Source of the DNA: Nyssa sinensis
Lineage: Eukaryota > Streptophyta > Magnoliopsida > Cornales > Nyssaceae
Assembly: GCA_008638375.1 (NCBI GenBank)
Contig: CM018035.1
Location: forward strand, 31,025,307-31,089,306
DNA length: 64,000 bases
Reading direction: 5' to 3'
Below the pieces are notes generated by a model. It saw only the letters and a list, made by a program, of their open reading frames with translations. It was not told where the DNA came from and did not search any database. Position numbers and translations under genes: made by a program. Of the stretch, positions 961 through 54,966 are shown in pieces (the stretch's first letter is position 1; each line of letters begins with the position of its first letter).

Positions 961-1114
961 TTATGAAATGGACTTATAAAAATAGTTATTTTTGAAATGA
1001 CTAAATTATCCATGTGCCTCGGAAGCACAAAACTGGTTTTGAAACCCAGGATAGGGAATCTGTGTTACTCACTGGGCTTATTTAAGCTCACCCCATTATT
1101 CTGACATTTTTCAG

Positions 1115-1242
1115 GAATTACCTCCATTGGATTAGAAGGTACTATGACATGACGTGAATAGGTCAAGTGGCATCGCAAGTAAGGATCTGACGGCACTGAA
1201 CTGTAGAGACTGGTTTATTGTGGATTGAACCTGGTTATTCCG
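1115..1242 (+). other. Conserved exon-like block of Ga elements (G1 copy, 128 nt)
   Basis: Bounded by a polypyrimidine/acceptor-like GACATTTTTCAG on the left and a donor-like CCG|GTGAGTGG on the right. The same block with the same borders occurs in G5 (42125-42253, 129 nt) and G6 (50174-50294, minus strand, 121 nt). No reading frame is conserved, so I read it as a non-coding exon of a spliced element transcript. Splicing is inferred, not shown. Confidence 0.55.
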
Positions 1243-1605
1243 GTGAGTGGTATGTTATGACTGACTTGACTGTTATATACTAGATAGACATGGCTCATGG
1301 AACTAATGGTACTCTAGAGATATTAGATCTGCTCTGTTATTATATGCTTGATTTTAGATATGCTCTGAAATTAGAATTGTTGACTGACTGGATTTAGTCT
1401 TGCTCTGTGATACATATTCTTATGATGGATAAGTGAGTTGCATTCCCGTGACACAAAGAAAAAGTTTTAAATTCCGCTGCATCTGACCCTACAGTCGAAA
1501 TGCAATTCGTCAGAAAGTTCAGAATTTGCCTTTGGTTGGTCGCGTCGCGACCGACTGGCAGTCACGTCCTCGACATCCGCATAGGGTGGGGTTCGGGATG
1601 TGACA

Positions 1606-2714: not shown

Positions 2715-5700
2715 TTGAATTTTGCATGCTGGAATATAAGGGGTATAAACAACCCTTCCAAACAGCGGGAAATTCGCTCTTTTGTTCATGATTATTCTCT
2801 TTATTTTTTTGGTATTGTAGAGACCAAAATTACACTTGCTTCTAAAGATACTATGGCTAACTCTCTCATTCTTGGATGGTCTTTTTTGCATAACTACTCT
2901 CATTCCCCTTCTGGGAGAATCTAGATTGGATGGCATAACTTTATATTGCAAATAAATTTTTCATATGCCACTGCTTAAGCTATTCATTGCAACGCCATAG
3001 TTCGGGACACCGATGCCCCTATCATCATTTCCGTTATATATGGCTCCAACTCCCTTTCTCAATGGACTGATTTATGGAGAGACATCCTCCTCCAGCCCGC
3101 CATCTCTTAGGATATTCCTTGGCTATCTTTGGGGATTTCAATGCTATTTGGTTTCCTCATGAAAGAAGAAGAGGTAGCTTAGACTGGCCAACTGTTTTGG
3201 ATGATTGCAATAAATGTTTTATAAATTCTAAGCTTGAGGATTTAAAATTTTCTAGGAATTTTTTCACCTGGTCTAATGGGCAATCCGCTCCTCACGCCAT
3301 TCTAAGGAAGCTTGATAGAGCACTAGTCAATCAAGCTTGGATTTTTACTTTTTCGTCTGCTGAAGCTGAATTTATTCCCCCTAGCCTTTCTGATCATTCT
3401 CCAATTATTGTTAGACCCAGCATGCCCGTTGAAAAAGAGCAAGATCCCTTTTAAGTTCTTCAATTTCTGGGCTGACTATGAGGATTTTTTACCTACTGTT
3501 GAGCAGGCTTGGAACTCTACCTTTCAAGGTACAACCATGTTTATATGTTGCCAGAAACTCAAAAAGGTTAAATATGCTCTTAAGGCCTTAAATTAGCAAA
3601 GACTTAAGAACCTCACCTCTCGAGTCCATGAAAGCCTGTAACAAGCTTCATGACATCCAAAGCCTCCTTCAACGGTATCCTGGGAATAACAGTCTAATTC
3701 AAGAGGAAAAAGAAGCTCACCATTTTTATTATTCCCTCATTTCCAGTGAGGATAGCTTGGCCAAGCAAAAATCTAAGATTCAATGGCTTTCAAAAAGTGA
3801 TAAAAATACCTCATTCTTCTTCAAATCAGTGAATAACAGAAGAAACCATAACAAGATTGTCAGCCTTCTTGATGCAAATGGTAATCGTATTGATGACTCC
3901 AAAGAGATCAGGAGCACCATTGTCAGCTTTTATCAAGAGCTTCTTGGAACCAAAAGTACCATCCAATACCCAGGAAAGCAAGCTCTTGCTTTAGTGATCT
4001 CAAAGCGGCTGCCAATTAATGCCCTCAATGCTCTCCAATGCCTTGTCTCTGAAGATGAAACCCAAGAGGCTCTCTTTAGCCTCCACCCTAATAAAGCTCC
4101 AAGGCCTGATGGCTTTAATGGCCAATTTTTCAAAAAAGCCTGGAGTATTGTCAAACTTGAGGTCATTGCGACTATCTCTAAATTTTTTTTCTACAAAAAC
4201 CATCCTCAAAGAGCTCAATGCCACAGTTATTACTCTTGTTCCCAAGGTCCCAAATCCTTCCTTTGTCCATGATTATCGCCCTATATCTTGCTGCAACACT
4301 ATCTACAAAACCATCTCCAAAACCCTTGCCAACTGTCTTTAGAAAGTCCATCCTAGTTTCATTGATTCGTCTCAATTGACCTTTATTCAAGGCAGGAAAA
4401 TCAGTGATAACATCCTTTTTGCCCAAGCTCTTATGCATAATTACCATAAAAACTCAGGCACCCCTCATTGCACTATGAAAGTTGATCTCAAGAAAGCCTA
4501 TGATTTGGTGAGGTAGGAATTTATTATTGATACGTTGAGTATTATGGGATTTCCTCTGCGGTTTATTGATTGGATTTTCTGTTGCATCTCTACCCCCCGT
4601 TACTCAGTAGTTATCAATGATGAGCTGGAAGGTTTTTTCCCAAGCGCTAACGGGTTAAGGGAAGGGGACCCTCTGTCCCCCTATCTTTTTGTGATTGCTA
4701 TGGATGTGCTTTCTGTGATTCTTCATCAGAAATTAGCTATTCCTCAATTTAAGTATCATTGGAGATGCTATAAAACCAAGCTGACTCACCTTTGCTTTGC
4801 TTATGATAGAATGCTTTTTTGTTTCGGGGATTTACTTTGAGCCTCTATTCTCAAGGAAGGTCTTGACACTTTTGCCTCTTATTCTGGTCTTTAGCACAAT
4901 ACCACTAAAAGTAACATTTTCATTTCTGGTATAGATTGCAACGCAAAGCAGCATATTATTTTTTTTTTTGATAAGTAAAAGATATATAAAAGAAGAAAAA
5001 TAAATACAAGATCAAGAGGGCATACCCAGCATATTATTGATCATATTGGATTTCCTGAAGGCTCCCTCCCTATTTGTTACCTTGGAGTTTCGTTGATCTC
5101 TACCAAGCTGAAAGCCCGGGATTGTAATACCTTGGTCGACCACATCATTGGTAAAATTAACTATTGGTCTAACAAATCCCTTTCATATGCAGGTCGGATT
5201 CAACTGATCAATTCAGTGCTGTTTAGCATCTAGGTTTACTAGTCTACCGATTTTATTCTTCCAAAAAACAAGCAATGAGAAATTTTCTTCGGAGTGGTAA
5301 CCATCTTATTTCTTCCGGATCCAAAGTTGCTTGGAACGATGTTACCTGTCCCAGGAATGAAGGGGGTCTTGGGCTTAAGAAGCTTATTGATGGGAATCTA
5401 GCAGCTCTGGGGAAGCACATCTGGGCAATGTTTCAAAACCCCTCTACCTCCCTTTGGGTTCTTTGGATTCGCAGCAATATTCTCAAAGGGAAGAGCTTCT
5501 GGGAGGTTAAATGTCCCCAATCTCGCTCGTGGGCTTGGAGGAAAATGCTTAAATTCAGGCCCTTGTTCAAACCTTACATCAAAATTTCTATTGGCAATGG
5601 CTACTTTGCTTCTCTTTGATTTGACTATTGGCTTCCTAATGGGTCTATTTATGACAACATGGGGGAATGGGTTATTTATTATTCAGGGCTTGGGAGATAT

Positions 5701-38200: not shown

Positions 38201-38845
38201 GGTGGTTTCGAGGTCCACTACTCACGTCTTAACCCAGATTTGTCATTCTAACCATCATGCATGCAGTTAAAATCCAAAATACACTGAAATAGTGGAGGAA
38301 ATTTAAAAGGAAAATTCTTAAGTTTGGTGTCTATACCTTACACAGTGAGTTTCTCTCTCTGTCTACTCGTAGCTCAGTTCTGCTCCTTTGGGTTCCTTTA
38401 GAATCAGCCTCGACCTCCTCCCCTTTTCTCTTCTAGTTGGGAGCCTCCATGCACACACACATTCACACACTAGCATGCACACGATGTGTTTCTCTCACAC
38501 TTTCTCTCTCTAATGCTCTCTCTCTCTCTAGATTTCAAACCTTCACTCTTCACTTTCTGATTTCCCACTTCAAACGTCCACACCAGATCAATATATAACT
38601 ATATGTATTTGTTTGGATTTTAAAAATAATGGTTATTTGCTTGCATGAAAGATGGTTGGTGGAGGTGTGATCAAGTATGCTGAAGTAGAGGTGATGATGA
38701 GGCTAGGGTGCATAGGCTGATGGGGTGGTGTGGTGTTGCATGCATGGCCATTGGCCAATTTGGGAGGTGGCCTTGACTGAATTGGGTTTAAATACAATTC
38801 TGTTGTGTTTTTATGCACAAGGATGGTGGTAGCCCACTTGGTAAT
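35267..38845 (-). mobile_element. G4: Gb-subfamily giant LTR-ended element (right part in sense order)
   Basis: Begins TGTCACAATCCGAAACCC and, after removal of nested G5, ends GGTCGGGGTGTTACA at 43071. That gives about 4.05 kb with a perfect 5-bp TSD. There is no PBS, PPT or transposase-like frame. Landmarks on the minus strand are acceptor-like CTAACATTTTTCAG near 35694, donor GTGAGTAACC at 36598 and the 53-nt block. Repeated ~66-bp units sit at 35921-36055. This is the best delimited member of its subfamily. It lacks the tRNA-like cassette. Confidence 0.88.
36599..36651 (-). other. Conserved exon-like block of Gb elements (G4 copy, 53 nt)
   Basis: Minus strand: preceded by GTTCTTAAG, ends ACTAAG|GTGAGTAACC. 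It is more diverged than the G2b/G7 pair but lies at the same position. Confidence 0.45.
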
Positions 38846-39344
38846 TCTAATACCCCAAAAATCTGACATGACCCAAATTACACCTCGGCTCAAGGAAAAT
38901 ACATTATCTGACGTTAATAAATTAAAATAGCTCAAAATATAGTGAGCCATTAATGAATTAATTATTAGAAAATATAAAATTAATCCAGACCATTGAAAAT
39001 AATAAATGCTCGGGAATCAATTAACCCGGTCGATCGAGTACTGGGGTAAATAAATGAGGCCAATACGCATAATTGATTATAAAATTATGTGAAAATAAAT
39101 AAGGCATTAACAGAGATCCAATGTTGGCAAAATAAATTCCCGGCTTTATTGACATGTTATAATTTAATATTTTATAGAATAAAATATTAAACCGGTACAG
39201 TGAAAATAATTATGACACCGAGTCTCCGTAAGTTAATATTTTATGAAATGAAATATTAATATGGGAGGTGTAAAATAAAAATATTGATTATATATAAAAT
39301 ATATGGAAGTATATTTGATAATTCAAATAAGAGTACAACCAATG

Positions 39345-39375
<31 letters not shown>

Positions 39376-39527
39376 AACCGTGGGAGCACGTGAGAAAAGG
39401 GGCTGCCTTATGTGCATTCATATATATGTCCATAATATATGTGTATTTAAGAGGGAATAGTCTAGAATAATGGAGAAAAAGAAAAGAGGAACAGGAGCAG
39501 CCGAAGCTGCTAGAAAAATTGGGGACC

Positions 39528-39561
<34 letters not shown>

Positions 39562-40119
39562 GAATTGTTTGGAGAAGAATCGAGAAGTCTGGAGAAGAAT
39601 AAGAACAGAGAAAGAGAAATAGAAAGGGAGTGAAATAGTGTGCAACGGGGGACTTCCGTTCGACCAGTTCTAATCGTCGAGTGATGGAGCTATCATCAAC
39701 GCAATCCATAATGGGTTGTTCAAATTGGTGCGATTGACGATGTAGAGAGGCTTGGATCAGGGAACGAATTTGGTTATTGGGTGAGTATGGTTTGAGCAAT
39801 GGAGTTTGGATGAGAAGGTGCAGCAAGTTATTGTTGTTGTGTGCAGCGGCGTAGGGAAGTGTAACACAGGGGATTTTGATATGGCTTGGGACTGTGCGTG
39901 GGTGTTATGGTTTTTGTGAGATGGCTGCTTCAATCAGTTCAGGCGTTGGGTTTTGTGGGATGGTTTAGGTGTAGATTGGAATTTCATGTAGATGTTGCGG
40001 TTGTGGGGTTCCTTTGTTCCGCCGCTCCAGTTGAGAACAGGGGCTGGTGGTGGTGTTCTACTATTATAGGATTCTAGACTGGTTTCATGTGAGGATTGGA
40101 GGAAATTTGCAGAGTAGCG

Positions 40120-40152
<33 letters not shown>

Positions 40153-40649
40153 CACGTTCCTGTTTGTAGGAAAATTGAGGGGAAATCACGTTGGATTGAT
40201 CGTTGGTTGGAGGATTCAAATTGGTTGATCCAACAGCAGTGTGTTGATGTTGGGTTGTGGCTTGAATTGATGGAAAAATTGGAGGCAATCTGCTATCATT
40301 TTGGTAAGGTCCAAAGAGGTTTCAGATTGGGAAATGAATTGATGTTGTTGCTGTTGTAAATTTTGTGTGTGTAGCGGTGACAGCACAGCAATGAGCTGCT
40401 CTGTTTGGGGCGATGACGGTGCTGCGGCAGTTATGAATTTAACCAGTTTTGATGGCACTACAAGAGTTGCTGTAGTTCATGTCATTGGAGGCCAAGGTGT
40501 ACGGTAGTGCAGCAGTGTTCGGATGGTGCAGATGGGTTGTCTATGGACAAAATTTTGCTGATAGCCGAGAGTTTAATTCAGAAGCTGTGGAGGCAAACTA
40601 ATTCTCTGGTTTCCCTGCAACACTTCCCTTTCATGATGAAGAACTTAAT

Positions 40650-40905
40650 ATGATGAATTTGGTGATGAGCAAGCTCCTTGAGAGGGAGAATGTTATAAAG
40701 TCTGTACAGGCCAAGGCTATGCTATGTTATTCCACAGCTGCAGCCCGATACATAATTGGGCGTTATTGGTTGGGCAAGGCGATTGATTTAATTAATGAAA
40801 CTTGTGCAAATGTGAAGGACAAGCTTCAGCAGTTGATTGAAATGCCCATTGGCCTTTTGGAAGGAAATTATAAAGCGTTCAGTAGCAGCAGATGTGGACT
40901 AGAGC
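40650..40905 (+). pseudogene. Unidentified open segment captured in G5
   Basis: An 89-codon frame (stop at 40916) of ordinary amphipathic composition (KLLERENVIKSVQAKAM, AIDLINETCANVKDKLQQLI) that does not look like simple sequence. I do not recognise it. It has no counterpart at this place in G6 and lies just upstream of a VPS13-like piece in the same orientation, so it may be another exon of a captured gene. Alternatively, chance openness. Confidence 0.4.
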
Positions 40906-41160
40906 TTGAATGCTAAAGCTTTTCCTTGCTATATGACTTATCTGAAGGATTCCATGGACCAAATTATCAATTATTTTGGAAGCAATGCTGCTGTTAGTCA
41001 GACCATAGCTTTGGAACCTACTGCTGCAGTACAGATGACAACTGATGAAGTTAAGCAAACTGCCCAGCAACAAGTAAACAGAGCATTAAAGGATCATGTC
41101 CGGTTTTCTTGGACTTGGATATTGCAACTCCCAAAATTATGATTCCATTGAAGTTCACGT
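40906..41160 (+). pseudogene. VPS13-like gene fragment captured in G5
   Basis: Reads SNAAVSQTIALEPTAAVQM, TTDEVKQTAQQQVNRALKDH and, after a one-base frameshift near 41105, LDLDIATPKIMIP. From memory, this resembles a conserved helical segment and the following beta-strand (rFsLDLDIaaPKI.IP) of plant VPS13/SHRUBBY-type lipid-transfer proteins. Only ~80 residues of a several-thousand-residue protein are present. It lies sense to the element and 250 nt before the donor. The fragment is non-functional; identity should be confirmed by a protein search. Confidence 0.5.
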
Positions 41161-41410
41161 GGTTGGGATTCGGAATGGAGAAACAAGAGGAACTGCCTGC
41201 CAAGCTAACTGGAGGGTTAAAAGAGGATTGCGATGCCGGTAGAATGCTGAATGCAATTCTCCAAAGGTTGGATATGTTCACATTTGTGGAGCATGATCTT
41301 CTGGATGTTGAATCAATTATGATGGCCATTAGAAGGATAATGCCCAGGATATGCATGGACGTGGCTAACGACACATCTGGAGGATATCTGTGAATGAGCG
41401 CGATATTCAG
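41161..41410 (+). other. Last part of the G5 capture exon, with donor CAG|GTGAGTAA
   Basis: A frame continues to 41393 (CDAGRMLNAILQRLDMFTFV, LLDVESIMMAIRRIM) that I cannot place. The final ~60 nt (ATATGCATGGACGTGGCTAA to GGATATCTGTGAATG) are shared with G6 (50985-51045 inverted), so they belong to the element itself. The exon-like region ends at 41410 at a strong donor consensus. Confidence 0.5.
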
Positions 41411-41660
41411 GTGAGTAACTCGGACTCCTGACTTGGTGTATATTTTCTGCATACTACGGCTTTATATGCTGAACTGTTTTATACACTGTATTGTTTTAAT
41501 GCATATGCTTTCATGCATATTCTTTATACTACATTGTGCATGGCATGATTCTATTCTGTCTTGCCTTTTGATGTATCCTGTTCTGATTCTGTTCGGGTTT
41601 GTCCTGTTCTGTTATACGCCATTTGGAATGTATTCTGTTTTGGCTCAGTTTTGATCTGAT

Positions 41661-41782
41661 CTGTTCTGTTAGGGGGTGAGTATAAGTCCTACCCCAGAGG
41701 GACCAGGCGGCTGCTCTTGATCTGTTCTGTTAGGGGGTGAGTATAAGTCCTACCCCAGAGGGACCAGGCGACTGCTCCTGAT
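41661..41782 (+). repeat. 61-bp direct repeat (2 copies) in the G5 intron-like region
   Basis: CTGTTCTGTTAGGGGGTGAG occurs at 41661 and 41722 and the two units are nearly identical. Surrounding 41580-41960 is made of degenerate CTGTTCTGAT-type units, as in G6 (inverted, 50440-50960). Confidence 0.88.
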
Positions 41783-42124
41783 CTGTTCAGTTTTGATCTG
41801 TTGTGTTCTGACCTATTCTGTCCTGGTCTGTTCTGTTGATCTGTCTGATCTGTTCTGTTTGATGTGTCTGATCTGGTCAGTTCTGATATGTTCTGTCCTG
41901 TTATGTTCTGATTTGTTCTGTCTTGGCTCTGTTCTGATTTGTCCGATCAGTCTGTTCTGATATGATATGTTTGAACTGCATTTGTTCTACATGAGTTGCA
42001 TTATTCTATTTGAGTTGCATTTGAGCATACATGTATACATGAACTAGATTTGAAACCCATGGCAGGAACCTATGTTACTCACTGAGCTTGTTTAAGTTCA
42101 TTCCATTTATTTAACATTTTTCAG

Positions 42125-42253
42125 GATATAATTCCATTAGACTAGAAGGTATAAGGAGATGATACTAGTAGGCTGTGAGGCATTTCAAGTGCGGATCTGA
42201 TGGCATTGATTTGTGAAGACTTGGATTATAATGGATTGACTTTGGCTATTCAG
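42125..42253 (+). other. Conserved exon-like block of Ga elements (G5 copy, 129 nt)
   Basis: Acceptor-like TTTAACATTTTTCAG before, donor-like CTATTCAG|GTGAGCG after. It aligns with 1115-1242 and inverted 50174-50294. Confidence 0.55.
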
Positions 42254-42592
42254 GTGAGCGTGATGATATAATTGATTTTATTTATATGCAATAGATGTGT
42301 AGGAACGTGGCTCTTGGTAATGATACTTTATAAGGATTTGGTATGCTCTGTGTTATATGCTTGGTTATAGATTTGCTCTATAGTACATGCTTATGAGGTA
42401 TATAGTTGAGTTGCATTCCCGAGATAAAAAGGTTTTAATTTCTGCTGTTCTGACCCTACATTTGGAAAGTAATTCATTGTAAGGTTCAGAAGATTGCCTT
42501 TGGTTGGTCGCATTGTCGGTTGGAGACTGGCAAGGCGGCTAACTGGCATCACATCTTCAGCATCCGCGTAGGGTGGGGTGCGGGATGTGATA

Positions 42593-43071
42593 GTAATTTT
42601 TTGGGTGCATAAAGTCTTGCCCCATTTGGTCAAGGGTTCAAATCTCCTTGGCCTCACTTTTGGGTATTTTCCCCCATTTGGGTTTAGGCCTTGTTTGGCT
42701 GACACAGAATTTCGTTTCAACTATTTCCTTTCTAATTTCTTTTCTGTTACTCCTTTTTCGACACGGTTTCTTCTGAGGGTTTCATATTTTGGTTAGCCTC
42801 GTTATCGAAGGCATCGTATCAATTATTATTTATTTGTGACCATCATAGTTCGCTAATTCGAGTTTCCACAGTGTTAAAATAATATCATTTCACCTAATTA
42901 ATTGGTAATTAGGTTCGGACATTTCGCCCTCATTTCTGATGTGCTTAATTATTTTATTGGTCTATCATGATCATCATGAGGTTCCCGATTAACTTCTTAA
43001 TTATTCTTTATGTCGGTTCTAATTAATAATTAGCAAACTAATTATTAATTAATCAGGGTCGGGGTGTTACA
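42593..43071 (-). mobile_element. G4 distal part (start of the element in sense order)
   Basis: Continuation of G4 beyond nested G5. It matches the reverse complement of 54282-54830 (G7) and ends TCGGGGTGTTACA at 43071, next to the right TSD copy. It contains a B-box-like GGGTTCAAATCTCC at about 42645 without a convincing A box. Confidence 0.85.
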
Positions 43072-49803: not shown

Positions 49804-50173
49804 TGTCACATCCCGTACCCCACCCTACGTGGATGCCAAAGATGTGATGCCAGTTAGCCGCCTTGCCGGTTGCAATTCGACCAACCAAAGGCAAACTTCT
49901 GAACCTAGCGATGACTTGCATTCCAAATGTAGGGTCAGAGCAGCGGAATTTAAAACTTTTCATCTTGGGAATGCAACTCATCTATGAACCACAAAGGTGT
50001 GTACCACAGAGCAAGTCAAAAACCAAATAGCTAATAACTCTAGCTACAGAGCACGTTTATATCCAGACATATAATACAGAGCATATCTAATCTCTCTAGA
50101 GTACCATTACTATGAGCCAAGTCCCAATACACCTAATGCATATCAATGAAGTCATTCGTATCATGTCACTCAC

Positions 50174-50294
50174 TTGAATAACCAGATTCAGTCCACAAGG
50201 ATCCAAATCTCCACAAATCAATGCCATTAGATCCTTACTTAGAATGCCTAAAAGCGTCATATCATTGTGCCTTCTAATCCAATGGAGATAAGTC
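50174..50294 (-). other. Conserved exon-like block of Ga elements (G6 copy, 121 nt)
   Basis: Minus strand: GACATTTTTCAG before, TATTCAA|GTGAGTGA after. Same location as in G1 and G5. Confidence 0.55.
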
Positions 50295-50976
50295 CTGAAA
50301 AATGTCAGATAAATAGAATGAGCTTAAACAAGCTCAATGAGTAACATGGGTTCCTGCCGTGGGTTTCAAAACTAGTTTTCTATATACATGGTATTCACAT
50401 GAAATGCATGCTCAAATGCAGCTCAAGTAGAACAATGCAACTTAAATATATCATATCAGAACAGACAGATCAGACAGAACAGAGTAGAGCCCAAACAGAA
50501 TAGATCAGAACTAAACTGAGTACCAATCAAACAACGACATAACATCAAATGTGCCTGAACCTTCCCCAGCTGCCCATAAGCGAACCACTTGTGGGGCCTC
50601 TACCCTCTGGGGTCAGATCAAAGCAGAACAGGATAGGATTGAGCGAATGCAGAGTTCTGGGATGCTGAGTTCACCACGCCTCATAGCTAGCCATCCACCC
50701 ACTGGTATACTCAATCCTGTGGTGGGCCCAAAGTAGACTCAATATCTCAAAACAAAATCAGAACAGAACAAACCCGAACAGAATCAGAACGGGATACATC
50801 AAAAGGTAGGATAGAATCGAATCATGCCATGCGTAATGCAGTACAAAGAGTATGCATGAAATCATATGCATTAAAATAGTACAGTGCAGAAAACAGTTTA
50901 GCATATAAAGTAGTACAATATACGAATCTAAATAGTACATAAAATATACACCAAATCAGGAGTCTAAGTTACTCAC

Positions 50977-51192
50977 CTGAATATATGCTTATCTCCATTC
51001 ACAGATATCCTCTAGATACGACGTTAGCCACGTCCATGCATATTCTGAACAATCATTATTAATCACAGACATTACAGCATCCGTGTGCTCATTTAATGTC
51101 TCGATGCATTGTAAAGTGTCAAGATCCCATATTCTTATTATAAGGTCTATCGTACTAGAGTAGAGTCTATTAGCTCCAATGACTAGGGAAGC
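50977..51192 (-). pseudogene. WD40-repeat fragment (ZFWD-like) captured in G6
   Basis: Minus strand: ASLVIGANRLYSS, then IIRIWDLDTLQCIETLNEHT and DAVMSV, one WD40 blade and the start of the next. It closely recalls plant ZFWD proteins (CCCH zinc finger plus WD40; RLYSGSMD.TIRVWDLDTLQC). From about 51064 to 50977 it continues into the element's own sequence, shared with G5, and stops at donor CAG|GTGAGTAA. It follows the kinase fragment in frame with no gap. A two-blade piece cannot form a propeller, so it is non-functional. Confidence 0.75.
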
Positions 51193-51326
51193 TACAGGAG
51201 TCATCCAATATAGTGTCCCCTCATAGACTTAGCACTTTAAATAACAGCCAGCTCAATGACCTATTTGGATGCACCACAATTCGCAAGTTTGATGCATCCT
51301 TTATTTTCAACAAGGATGTTCGCCCC
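51193..51326 (-). pseudogene. MAPKKK (ANP/NPK1-like) kinase fragment captured in G6
   Basis: Minus strand: [20 protein letters not shown], K, a stop, VIELAVI, a stop, SAKSMRG, then after a one-base shift LYWMTPV. This is the catalytic-loop to activation-segment region of plant ANP/NPK1-type MAPKKKs ([20 protein letters not shown], then KSMKGTPYWMAPEV in the family). The DFG motif is NCG here. It is directly joined to the beta-galactosidase piece upstream and the WD40 piece downstream. About 45 residues; not functional. Confidence 0.75.
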
Positions 51327-51726
51327 CCTTAAGAAGTTACAATGGAATCTGCTAAAACCAGAGTTTGCTCGCATAGTTTAATAGCCCTATGAAGCTCCTT
51401 CAAATGACCATAGTTTGGTTGTCTGATCAAACCATATTCATCAAGTAGGGCATCACATTTATAGCTGGTAGTGAGGAAAGGGCCTTCTATAGAGCGTCTA
51501 AAATTGGTCCCACCATGGTACATGTGGTCATTAACAAATGATCCTCTTTTTGTATGAACCACGCAACAGCAAATGGCAAATCTTGAACTGGCCTTTGGCG
51601 AATTGGTTAGCAAACTCCATAAGCTAGCCACACAAGAAATCCTCCAAAATTCCACTCTGCACAAGCATAAGGCCCAATGTGTAGATAAGCATAGAGCCCT
51701 GCTTTTTAGATTGTCTTTATGAACCT
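51327..51726 (-). pseudogene. Beta-galactosidase (GH35) fragments captured in G6
   Basis: Minus strand: RFIKTI, stop, [27 protein letters not shown], then a jump to [20 protein letters not shown], after a frameshift [18 protein letters not shown], and [20 protein letters not shown] ending at TAA (51329). These are two non-adjacent parts of plant GH35 enzymes joined with the intervening ~150-200 residues missing, as if exons were skipped or a segment deleted. The enzyme releases terminal galactose from cell-wall polymers. This piece is dead. It is sense to the element. Confidence 0.85.
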
Positions 51727-51739
51727 AACTAATTCATAT

Positions 51740-51935
51740 CTTCAATCACCCATAGTTTTGCGAACCAAATTATCAAAACTTAAAGTAGAACCCGAATTCA
51801 GATCACGATCCAGCGATACGGCCAAAGTCGACAACTCCTCAACAGTAAACACGCAACTCTCTACAGGTTCACTGGTCTGGGAAGACACCGAATTAGACTT
51901 GCTCTCCTTGTCTTCCCACTCGAACTACTGCTAGA
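51740..51935 (-). pseudogene. Unidentified open segment captured in G6
   Basis: The minus-strand frame reads about 60 open codons of Ser/Glu-rich sequence (FEWEDKESKSNSVSSQ, FTVEELSTLAVSLDRDLNSG), then GD and a stop. The composition is that of a real coding exon rather than simple repeat, and it sits immediately upstream of the GH35 pieces. Family not recognised. A further frame at 51950-52060 (EVEVDLGFYNDIDGVVAD) may be related. Confidence 0.4.
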
Positions 51936-53584
51936 GTAATTATTAATCAATCAAACCCCAAGCCTTCTATAAAAACCTTCTTCTAAGCTGCTACGGCCTT
52001 TCTTACAACTCCAGTATCAGCAACAACTCCATCAATATCATTATAGAATCCCAAATCAACCTCAACTTCACAAGCAAAATAAATTGAAGACGGGTACATC
52101 AAACTAAAGTAATGCAGGCCAAGTAGAGTAACAATGGGGATAAAATGGAGAGCAAAATATCAGACTTGCATTCTGGGCAATAGAGACAGAAGTGACCAAT
52201 TTCTCCACACGTTTGAGCTTCTCAGAGATCTGCTGCACCGCTACTGCTGCTCGCTCCCTGTTTCAGTTCCCCTCTGCACTTCCGTCCCTTTGCTACACCG
52301 CTACACACACACAAACAAATATATATATATATATATCCCTGCTACACTGCCACATATCTCTTCTAATAGCTTCTTAGGTGAAGCTCTACTCTTTCTTTCT
52401 CCTCCTCATCTTCTTCTTCGCGGTATTGCTCTGAACAACAGCGCCAACAGCACTAAAGAAGATAGATGTATAGCAGGATGAGTGCTTCGTCAATTCAGTA
52501 AGACGAAATCAAAATTGAGCCCCACCACACTTTTCCTCTGAAAATTTAAGATGACTTGGGTGTAGAACTCATCGACCTAAGGGAACTGCGACCTATCCCA
52601 GCACGTTGTATAAAATTTTGAGAAACAGAATTCACCGACTCCATTTCTCACTCTCAACTGGATGATCGGAAGTCCCTTCTTTTCCTGTTGCCCACTCGCA
52701 AATATATATATATATATATGGATGTTGGATCCTTCCAAAATGTCCTGGGCAGCTCCTCCCTAGAAGGTTCATAAACTTGTTTGTGTATATGTATATATAA
52801 TACCCTTTCCAGTAGCTTCTGCTGCGACCGACTCCCTTTTCTTTTCTTCCAGTAACTTCCTCTATTTCTCTCTCATTTTTCTCTTGTCATCTAACAGTTT
52901 CTTGCTAGAAGTTTCCCCGAACTTGTTTGTGTATATCTATAATATATATATATATGTATCTCGGTTCTTTCTTATTTTCCCACAAATTCCAGCAGCTTTT
53001 ACAAGCTGCACCACCACACATTCAGCCCCTATTAGTCATGTGTTCAAGGAGTTTCTTGATTGCTTCCTTAGATATATTGCCTCTTCCTTTTTCCTACATA
53101 GCAGCTTCTTATGGAAGCCTCTGGACACACACACATATATATAAATATATAGATATATATATATATATATATATATATCTTTATATATAATATGTGTAGA
53201 TTTTTATGTCTTATCGTATTTTTATTTCATAAAATATTAATTTATGAAGTAGTAGTAAATTTGGCTTAAAGCCGAGACTCAGGTATCATAATTATTTGTT
53301 TTGCCAATAGTGAGTCCCCGTTCGTATCTCATATGATATTCAAATTATTTTGATATTTAATTCTTCATATCGATCCCATTTATGAATCCCGGCACTGGGT
53401 TGACTGGGTTGTCTATTTCCCGAGCATATACCATCTTTGGTGTTTCGGATTCATTTCGTATCTTAAGATTATTAAGCCCATTATGGCTTATTGTATTTTG
53501 AGTTATGTCAAATCATTATTGTCACAGAACCTATGTTTATTAGGTCGGGGTGTAGTTTGGGTCATGTCAGATTTTCGGGGTATG

Positions 53585-54281: not shown

Positions 54282-54966
54282 TGTAACACCCCGACTTCGA
54301 TTAATTAATAATTAGTTCGCTAATTATTAATGAGAAACAACATAAAGAAAGAATAATTAAGAAAATTAATCGAGAATTTCTCGATGGTTGCAATAGGCCA
54401 ACAAAATAATTAAATACGTTAAAAAGGGAAAAGATGTAATACTCCGAACCTAATTACCGATTAATTTATGAAATGATGTCTTTTTGGAATTTAATGCATT
54501 AATTAGCCATTTTAGCCTCATTTAACATTATAAAATTCTGAATTAGCGAATTACGAAGACCACAAAGAAATAATAACCGATGCAAGGCTTTGAACTTCGA
54601 AGCCAACCCAAGTAGGAAACGACCAAATGAAATCGTTTCGTAAAAAGAGAAATAGAAAAGAAATTTTGAGGGAAAAAGCTAAAACGATAAACTATGAGAG
54701 CCAAACAAGGCATAAGCACAAAATATGGGGAAAAAAATGACAAAAGTGAGGCCAAGGGGTTTTGAACCCTTGACCAAGTAAGGCGACCAAGTGACACCCA
54801 AAAATTTACCAAGTGGGCTGCCAGCACTTTTTTGCTTAATTATACAACTAATATGTATATGAGCCCAAATTAACCAAGTCCACCTCCCAAAATGGCTAAT
54901 GGCCAATAATGCACCACCTCAGCCCAACTTAGCCACCACAGCAGCCCTACCATGCATATACATGTG

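Follow-up and report, generated by a model that had tools for sequence, protein, structure and literature searches.

The window, a 64-kb stretch of Nyssa sinensis DNA at C13:31025307-31089306, contains three copies of one repeat, here called G6, copy A and copy C (Table 1). G6 has an intact 3' end. Its 5' end is truncated at about position 53583, where it begins ATACCCCGAAAATCTG and lacks the first four or so bases of TGTAATACCCC, and it has no TSD. On the minus strand, positions 51065-51743 consist of GH35, MAPKKK and WD40 coding pieces placed end to end in sense orientation. The string begins further upstream than GH35, with a module that is also present in other copies; a protein search with this module gave its own locus and GH35 proteins, and no donor was found for it. 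The string contains stop codons and a frameshift, and in G6 it is probably non-coding and not translated. Elsewhere in the window, the only Rfam match at the gathering threshold is a plant C/D-box snoRNA, snoR71 (RF00097; 17372-17479, minus strand; 46.1 bits).

Table 1. Positions of the element copies in the window and of the parts of G6.
Feature	Position	Strand	Remarks
Copy C	1029..1605	+	3' part of a third copy; ends CGGGATGTGACA
Copy A	38846..42592	+	complete, solo-LTR-like, 3747 bp; TSD GTAAT (38841-38845 / 42593-42597)
Slot of copy A	40602..41140	+	coding-like modules unlike those of G6
G6	49804..53583	-	solo-LTR-like element copy; 3' end ...CGGGATGTGACA at 49804
LTR 3' part (R/U5-like tail)	49804..50511	-	ends CGGGATGTGACA
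Possible LTR intron	50295..50976	-	GT at 50976, acceptor-like TTTTTCAG ending at 50295; by inspection of sequence only
LTR constant exon	50977..51047	-	CAGAATATGCATGG...ATATTCAG; ends at conserved donor CAG/GTGAGTAAC
ZFWD-like WD40 piece	51065..51196	-	parts of donor exons 5 and 6, fused without the intron
ANP/NPK1-like MAPKKK piece	51192..51327	-	two donor exons fused, intron removed
GH35 piece 2	51326..51624	-	donor exons b, c and d, fused without their introns; a jump at GTGGCTG connects them to piece 1
GH35 piece 1	51625..51743	-	donor exon a and first ~19 nt of next exon, intron between removed; one stop codon
Module FEWEDKESKSN...	51748..51962	-	common to L009; partly to L015 and second repeat group (L016-L019, L024)
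LTR 5' part (U3 start)	53220..53583	-	common to copy A and genome copies with fetched 5' end

The segment 51329-51724 (minus strand) matches beta-galactosidase 3w5f (E = 3.6e-22) and the GH35 family PF01301 (9.6e-13), and the non-adjacent piece 51610-51705 matches the same family (4.4e-09). The segment 50989-51228 (minus strand) matches many WD40 chains; the best whole-chain E value, 1.8e-30, is summed over seven repeats, and the best single stretch has about 0.016. Among the WD40-type models of Pfam, none passed its curated cut-off with the short G6 piece (best PF25173, 3.3e-07). The G6 kinase piece alone gave no significant match (best MAP3K2, E = 0.91; none in Pfam). A longer copy of the kinase module in genome copy L014 is a kinase (PF00069, 7.5e-32; best PDB match MAP3K2, 2.8e-30). 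Module identity in G6 was decided by DNA alignment to spliced donors, and the names ANP/NPK1 and ZFWD are those that we take to apply to the kinase and WD40 modules. In the translated ZFWD donor a CCCH-like N-terminus precedes a WD40 reading frame, and zf_CCCH_4 is matched by two ORFs from the LTR middles (slots).

Genome searches with segments of L009 and L014 revealed likely donors in the same genome: for GH35 at C2:50296845-50299730 (four exon matches), for ANP at C163:81919-85797 (six exon matches) and for ZFWD at C10:40868372-40869765 (six exon matches). A GH35 paralogue at C3:55886444 matches more poorly than the C2 gene in all four exon matches. Aligned to the spliced donors over the intervals in Table 1, G6 is 91.0% identical for GH35 (51326-51743, 420 b, E = 5e-169; the spliced string already includes the internal GTGGCTG jump), 89% for ANP (137 b, 2e-47) and 89% for ZFWD (132 b, 3e-47). 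L009, which is about 91% identical to G6, gives 91.5% for GH35, 86.8% with 11 gaps for ANP, and a gapless 89.7% over 614 b for ZFWD, and L014 is 93.4% identical to the spliced ANP donor over 442 b, also gapless. The donor introns are bounded by GT/AG. All five that G6 spans are cleanly absent (three from GH35, one from ANP, one from ZFWD), and the exon joins match with 0-6 mismatches in 30. L009 cleanly lacks ten of ten (three, two and five, respectively). L014 lacks all five ANP introns (1/2 to 5/6); four of its five ZFWD joins were found at up to 7 mismatches in 30, and join 2/3 was not found. Since the tested donor introns are cleanly absent, the cargo was captured from spliced RNA. This answers whether introns would be present or spliced out, a point on which the preliminary description had made the choice between DNA- and RNA-level capture depend. 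Its assignments to GH35, an ANP/NPK1-like MAPKKK and ZFWD all hold, each now tied to a likely donor gene, as do its two non-adjacent GH35 segments and the sense orientation of every piece on the minus strand.

Short repeats are found at joints inside the string. GH35 in the copy exits its exon at ...GTGTGGCTG and resumes at exon b. The donor exon before b ends ...GAGTGGCTG and is followed by an intron, with GTGGCTG as the last 7 nt of that exon. The jump uses this 7-nt repeat and runs on over the spliced border. Because it lands at the exon-final GTGGCTG and continues straight into the next exon, its template was spliced. Exon skipping was considered as the cause of the gap and rejected: piece 1 ends about 19 nt inside a donor exon, and both edges of the gap end in GTGGCTG. 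The gap is a jump or a deletion on spliced sequence. A longer GH35 cDNA, with a GHD domain and the identical internal jump, is present in another repeat, L010. The GH35/ANP joint has AGGGGG on both sides (the GH35 side from the donor, the ANP side from the spliced L014 copy), and the ANP module of L009 is shortened between two copies of GCCAACAG relative to L014. The pieces had been described as joined without spacers. They do abut in G6, but 604 b that are present between ANP and the last ZFWD part in L009 are missing there, and the seamless ANP/ZFWD joint of G6 is a later, secondary 604-bp deletion relative to L009.

The vehicle is a 3.5-4.2 kb LTR of an abundant LTR retrotransposon. TG...CA ends with a short inverted repeat (TGTAATACCCC...GGGATGTGACA) are present in L021 and L023, L015 and L027 start with TGTAATATCCC, and the ends of copy A are degenerate (TC...TA). 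Copy A splits another repeat, an uninterrupted copy of which lies at about 54282-54921 (minus strand); the exact ends and TSD of copy A follow from its flanking halves, which in that copy join uninterrupted at 54806-54809, the insertion point. Ends of this other LTR-like repeat, CGGGGTGTTACA / TGTAACACCCCG, lie at 43060-43071 and 54282-54293. Five of the six copies with both ends located have 5-bp TSDs (GTAAT in A, TATTT in L015, GTATA in L021, GCACA in L023, AATAT in L027/L029), G6 being the exception. The LTRs of L015, L021, L023 and L027 are 3683, 3493, 4158 and 4050 b long. In L027 a PBS directly follows the LTR (GCGGGATGTGACA/GAG/TGGTATCAGAGC), and its motif presumably pairs with tRNA-iMet. 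L027/L029 consists of LTR, PBS, 670 b and a truncated second LTR, 91.9% identical over 1180 b, within a matching TSD. Of 40 scored places (2925 first-look candidates), 25, counting that of the query, are matched without a break through LTR end, PBS and leader; the remaining 15 match the leader only from query 48-118 on. The PBS, the TSDs in sister copies and the LTR-internal-LTR arrangements bear out the earlier impression that the vehicle is LTR-like. Two LTR copies that are 99% identical lie about 0.5 Mb apart at C7:4686984-4688754 and C7:5179552-5181323; their 3' flanks are nearly equal, so that they probably arose by segmental duplication and not by separate insertions.

The element at C3:39685774, whose first LTR is known from its 3' end only, has an internal region of about 1.8 kb, and its second LTR starts at about 1118 of L065 after a purine-rich stretch. 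No gag-pol was found in the internal parts read: the longest stop-free stretches are 58 aa (L065, 1-1110) and 64 aa (L029, 403-1072), and the last ~1.1 kb of the C3 internal region has no ORF of at least 70 aa. As no stop-free stretch in these parts exceeds 64 aa, the L027/L029 and C3 elements look non-autonomous, and the family is apparently LARD-like.

The strong donor at which the preliminary description had the captured string end is conserved, but it belongs to the constant exon of the LTR and not to the cargo. It closes this exon in 7 of the 9 places listed by the motif filter. Sequence similar to the possible LTR intron that follows is also present in copies A and C. A spliced LTR copy was not found among the copies read.

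The cargo lies inside the LTR, in a middle of about 2 kb that varies between copies. The copies have in common a 5' part, where the 5' end was fetched, and a 3' part of about 1.25 kb comprising the constant exon, the donor and the tail. L015 is a solo LTR flanked by a TSD; within its borders it has ZFWD, the first exon of GH35 and the module of 51748-51962, and it lacks ANP. Modules recur across the middles in changing combinations and do not form a simple nested series. Of the cargo identified, ZFWD next to the constant part is the most widespread (18 middles compared, 30 sources mapped). ANP is present in L014, L009 and G6 among the copies read and at further places in the genome, and GH35 exons b-d are present in L009, G6 and L010. 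At 11 of 40 scored places a one-piece match runs from just past ZFWD (query 385-404) to the LTR end (1753-1758), which points to LTRs that have the same backbone and lack ZFWD at this site.

Across 12 rows, the ZFWD copies agree with one another against the donor at 11 sites (≥85%); two of these are at the 3' edge and may fall outside the module. Their tree is unrooted, with deep-node support of 0.13-0.40. A single ZFWD capture seems likely from these sequences, and one capture followed by additions, amplification and trimming would fit. L015 and the second repeat group show that there was also movement of modules between repeats or repeated capture. Any order of captures is for this reason tentative, and the divergence of L009 from the donors hardly supports one. 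No complete element with one and the same captured string in each of its LTRs is among those read. A candidate for cargo in both LTRs of one element is a pair of ZFWD copies 6712 b apart on one strand (C8:2416827-2417159 and C8:2423539-2423871, plus strand), which share an internal gap. The public N. sinensis gene model F0562_017900 (P0001) matches a portion of the string in L009, which lies on C10, at 100% across 46% of the query, so that part of the chimera has been annotated as a gene.

More host genes may have been captured in other LTR middles. A module in the slot of copy A, which we take to be VPS13-like, resembles a hypothetical protein of Nyssa and an uncharacterised one of Nelumbo (69% identity across 65% of the query for the latter). 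Pfam was run on 138 of 169 slot ORFs, with ORFs of the repeats L010, L016 and L018 included and the window's own among the 31 dropped. The slot ORFs matched 40 families at E 0.01; the 25 listed are mainly WD40-type, GH35 and kinase families, with one FHA and one retroelement SH3. The FHA domain lies in one slot ORF (2.2e-14), which was not located in three further scans of 10 ORFs each. A kinase piece at L022:2544-2738 (plus strand; 4.9e-06) is below the Pfam cut-off, and L028:2808-2966 (plus strand) has a weak Utp12 match (0.0056). L016, which belongs to the second repeat group, where the first GH35 exon is also present, has at about 2900-3150 (minus strand) a piece that we assume to be DEAD-box helicase-like; its ORFs, tested one by one, gave no Pfam match.

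G6 is a (solo) LTR carrying a chimera of spliced mRNAs from at least three host genes, probably made by reverse-transcriptase template switching and then amplified. Template switching during LTR reverse transcription fits the origin from spliced RNA, the fact that all four modules run in sense, the short homologies at the joints and the place between the LTR ends. Reverse transcriptase, presumably that of a partner retrotransposon, would leave the constant 3' LTR part while copying element RNA and would then copy stretches of host mRNA toward their 5' ends, switching at short microhomologies. Its return to the element U3 would place host cDNA in sense orientation between the U3 and the R/U5-like part of the new LTR. 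The chimeric LTR would be amplified, short-homology deletions would trim its modules, and the copies would persist largely as solo LTRs. Since L010, a different repeat, also has GH35 cDNA with this jump, part of the cDNA may have come to the LTR second-hand, and the first captures may predate the element family. It is possible, though we hold the idea only tentatively, that the LTR is a serial cDNA trap, in which the enzyme jumps repeatedly from the R/U5-like part onto packaged host mRNAs and then to U3, during minus-strand strong-stop synthesis or first-strand transfer. Each new host exon would then be placed 5' of those already present, between U3 and U5, and the LTR would be a sense mosaic of spliced host exons beside its splice donor, placed for chimeric transcripts.

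The cargo could instead derive from processed pseudogenes made by LINEs that lay in or near the element and entered it through double-strand-break repair, unequal exchange or gene conversion. The position of the L010 cDNA outside a G6-type LTR is consistent with this route, microhomology is also a mark of end-joining, and sequence that by inspection we take to be LINE-like flanks G6 and copy C. At least three independent retrocopies would be needed, however, all in sense and all in the same part of the LTR. LINE retrocopies are usually 3'-anchored, whereas the captured pieces are internal parts of mRNAs, and no A-run of eight or more is present in the slots of G6, L009, L014 and L015. We consider this origin unlikely.

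Two further explanations are much less probable than pseudogene uptake. The string might be the decayed remains of a chimeric gene or retrogene of the host, with LTR pieces inserted afterwards, and the gene model P0001 is in keeping with this; but the same modules occur at several loci beside the same LTR constant part, and L015 holds modules in one TSD-flanked LTR. This recurrence with the LTR at multiple loci contradicts a host gene lying outside the element borders and makes such a history very improbable. Pack-MULEs have long TIRs and TSDs of 8-11 bp and keep introns, and Helitrons have no TSD, a 5' TC and a 3' CTRR with a hairpin. The vehicle differs from the former in its 5-bp TSD, its PBS and its removed introns, and from the latter in its TSDs and TG...CA ends. 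Chimeric gene-fragment cargo is typical of Pack-MULE, CACTA and Helitron elements, according to the available part of one source (PMC13317346), but transduplication of genomic fragments by any of these is contradicted by the TSD size, the PBS and the intron loss, since such elements copy DNA. The TG...CA ends and LTR pairs also speak against it, and we regard it as the least probable explanation of all.

If template switching produced the string, jumping elements can build new gene mosaics from RNA. Within one genome, a branching set of copies and the likely donors make RNA origin, microhomology jumps, trimming and amplification directly readable. Host exons are carried next to a splice donor by the LTRs themselves, and not just by internal regions, and new chimeric transcripts might arise in this way.

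LARDs are non-autonomous elements with LTRs of about 4 kb and a non-coding internal region. The present elements resemble them in LTR length (3493-4158 b) and in an internal region without ORFs in the parts read, and differ in the length of the internal region at C3:39685774, about 1.8 kb, and in an LTR middle of variable, partly host-derived sequence. In Bs1 of maize the cargo lies in the internal region between short LTRs. Here, in contrast, it lies inside a long LTR, with its modules in varying combinations at several loci, and the internal parts read have no coding capacity. Intronless host-gene pieces occur inside the element here, as for Bs1-like RNA-level capture. Bs1 is described in the accessible portion of PMC13317346 as an LTR retrotransposon with fragments of three cellular genes and is, on that portion, the nearest precedent, with unrelated host-gene pieces forming a chimera in one LTR element in both cases. 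The same portion reports that BARE-2 and Veju gained new sequence via abnormal template switching; it was taken from another retrotransposon or has no known source, whereas the string described here derives from host mRNAs. No published report of host-cDNA strings inside LTRs was found at the level of titles and abstract openings, with subscription journals mostly outside the scope of the search. Gene capture by LTR retrotransposons is reported for 672 genes in rice and 1,343 in sorghum in the part of PMC3726574 that was available, and 425 maize LTR elements with host gene fragments are given in the corresponding part of PMC2774510. Under its conditions that survey, so far as its available text goes, found no element in which two or more standard nuclear genes were represented by fragments, so that plant LTR elements seem seldom to capture from several donors. 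Unlike the elements of the maize survey, as that text presents them, the LTRs described here carry pieces of several nuclear genes in one LTR.
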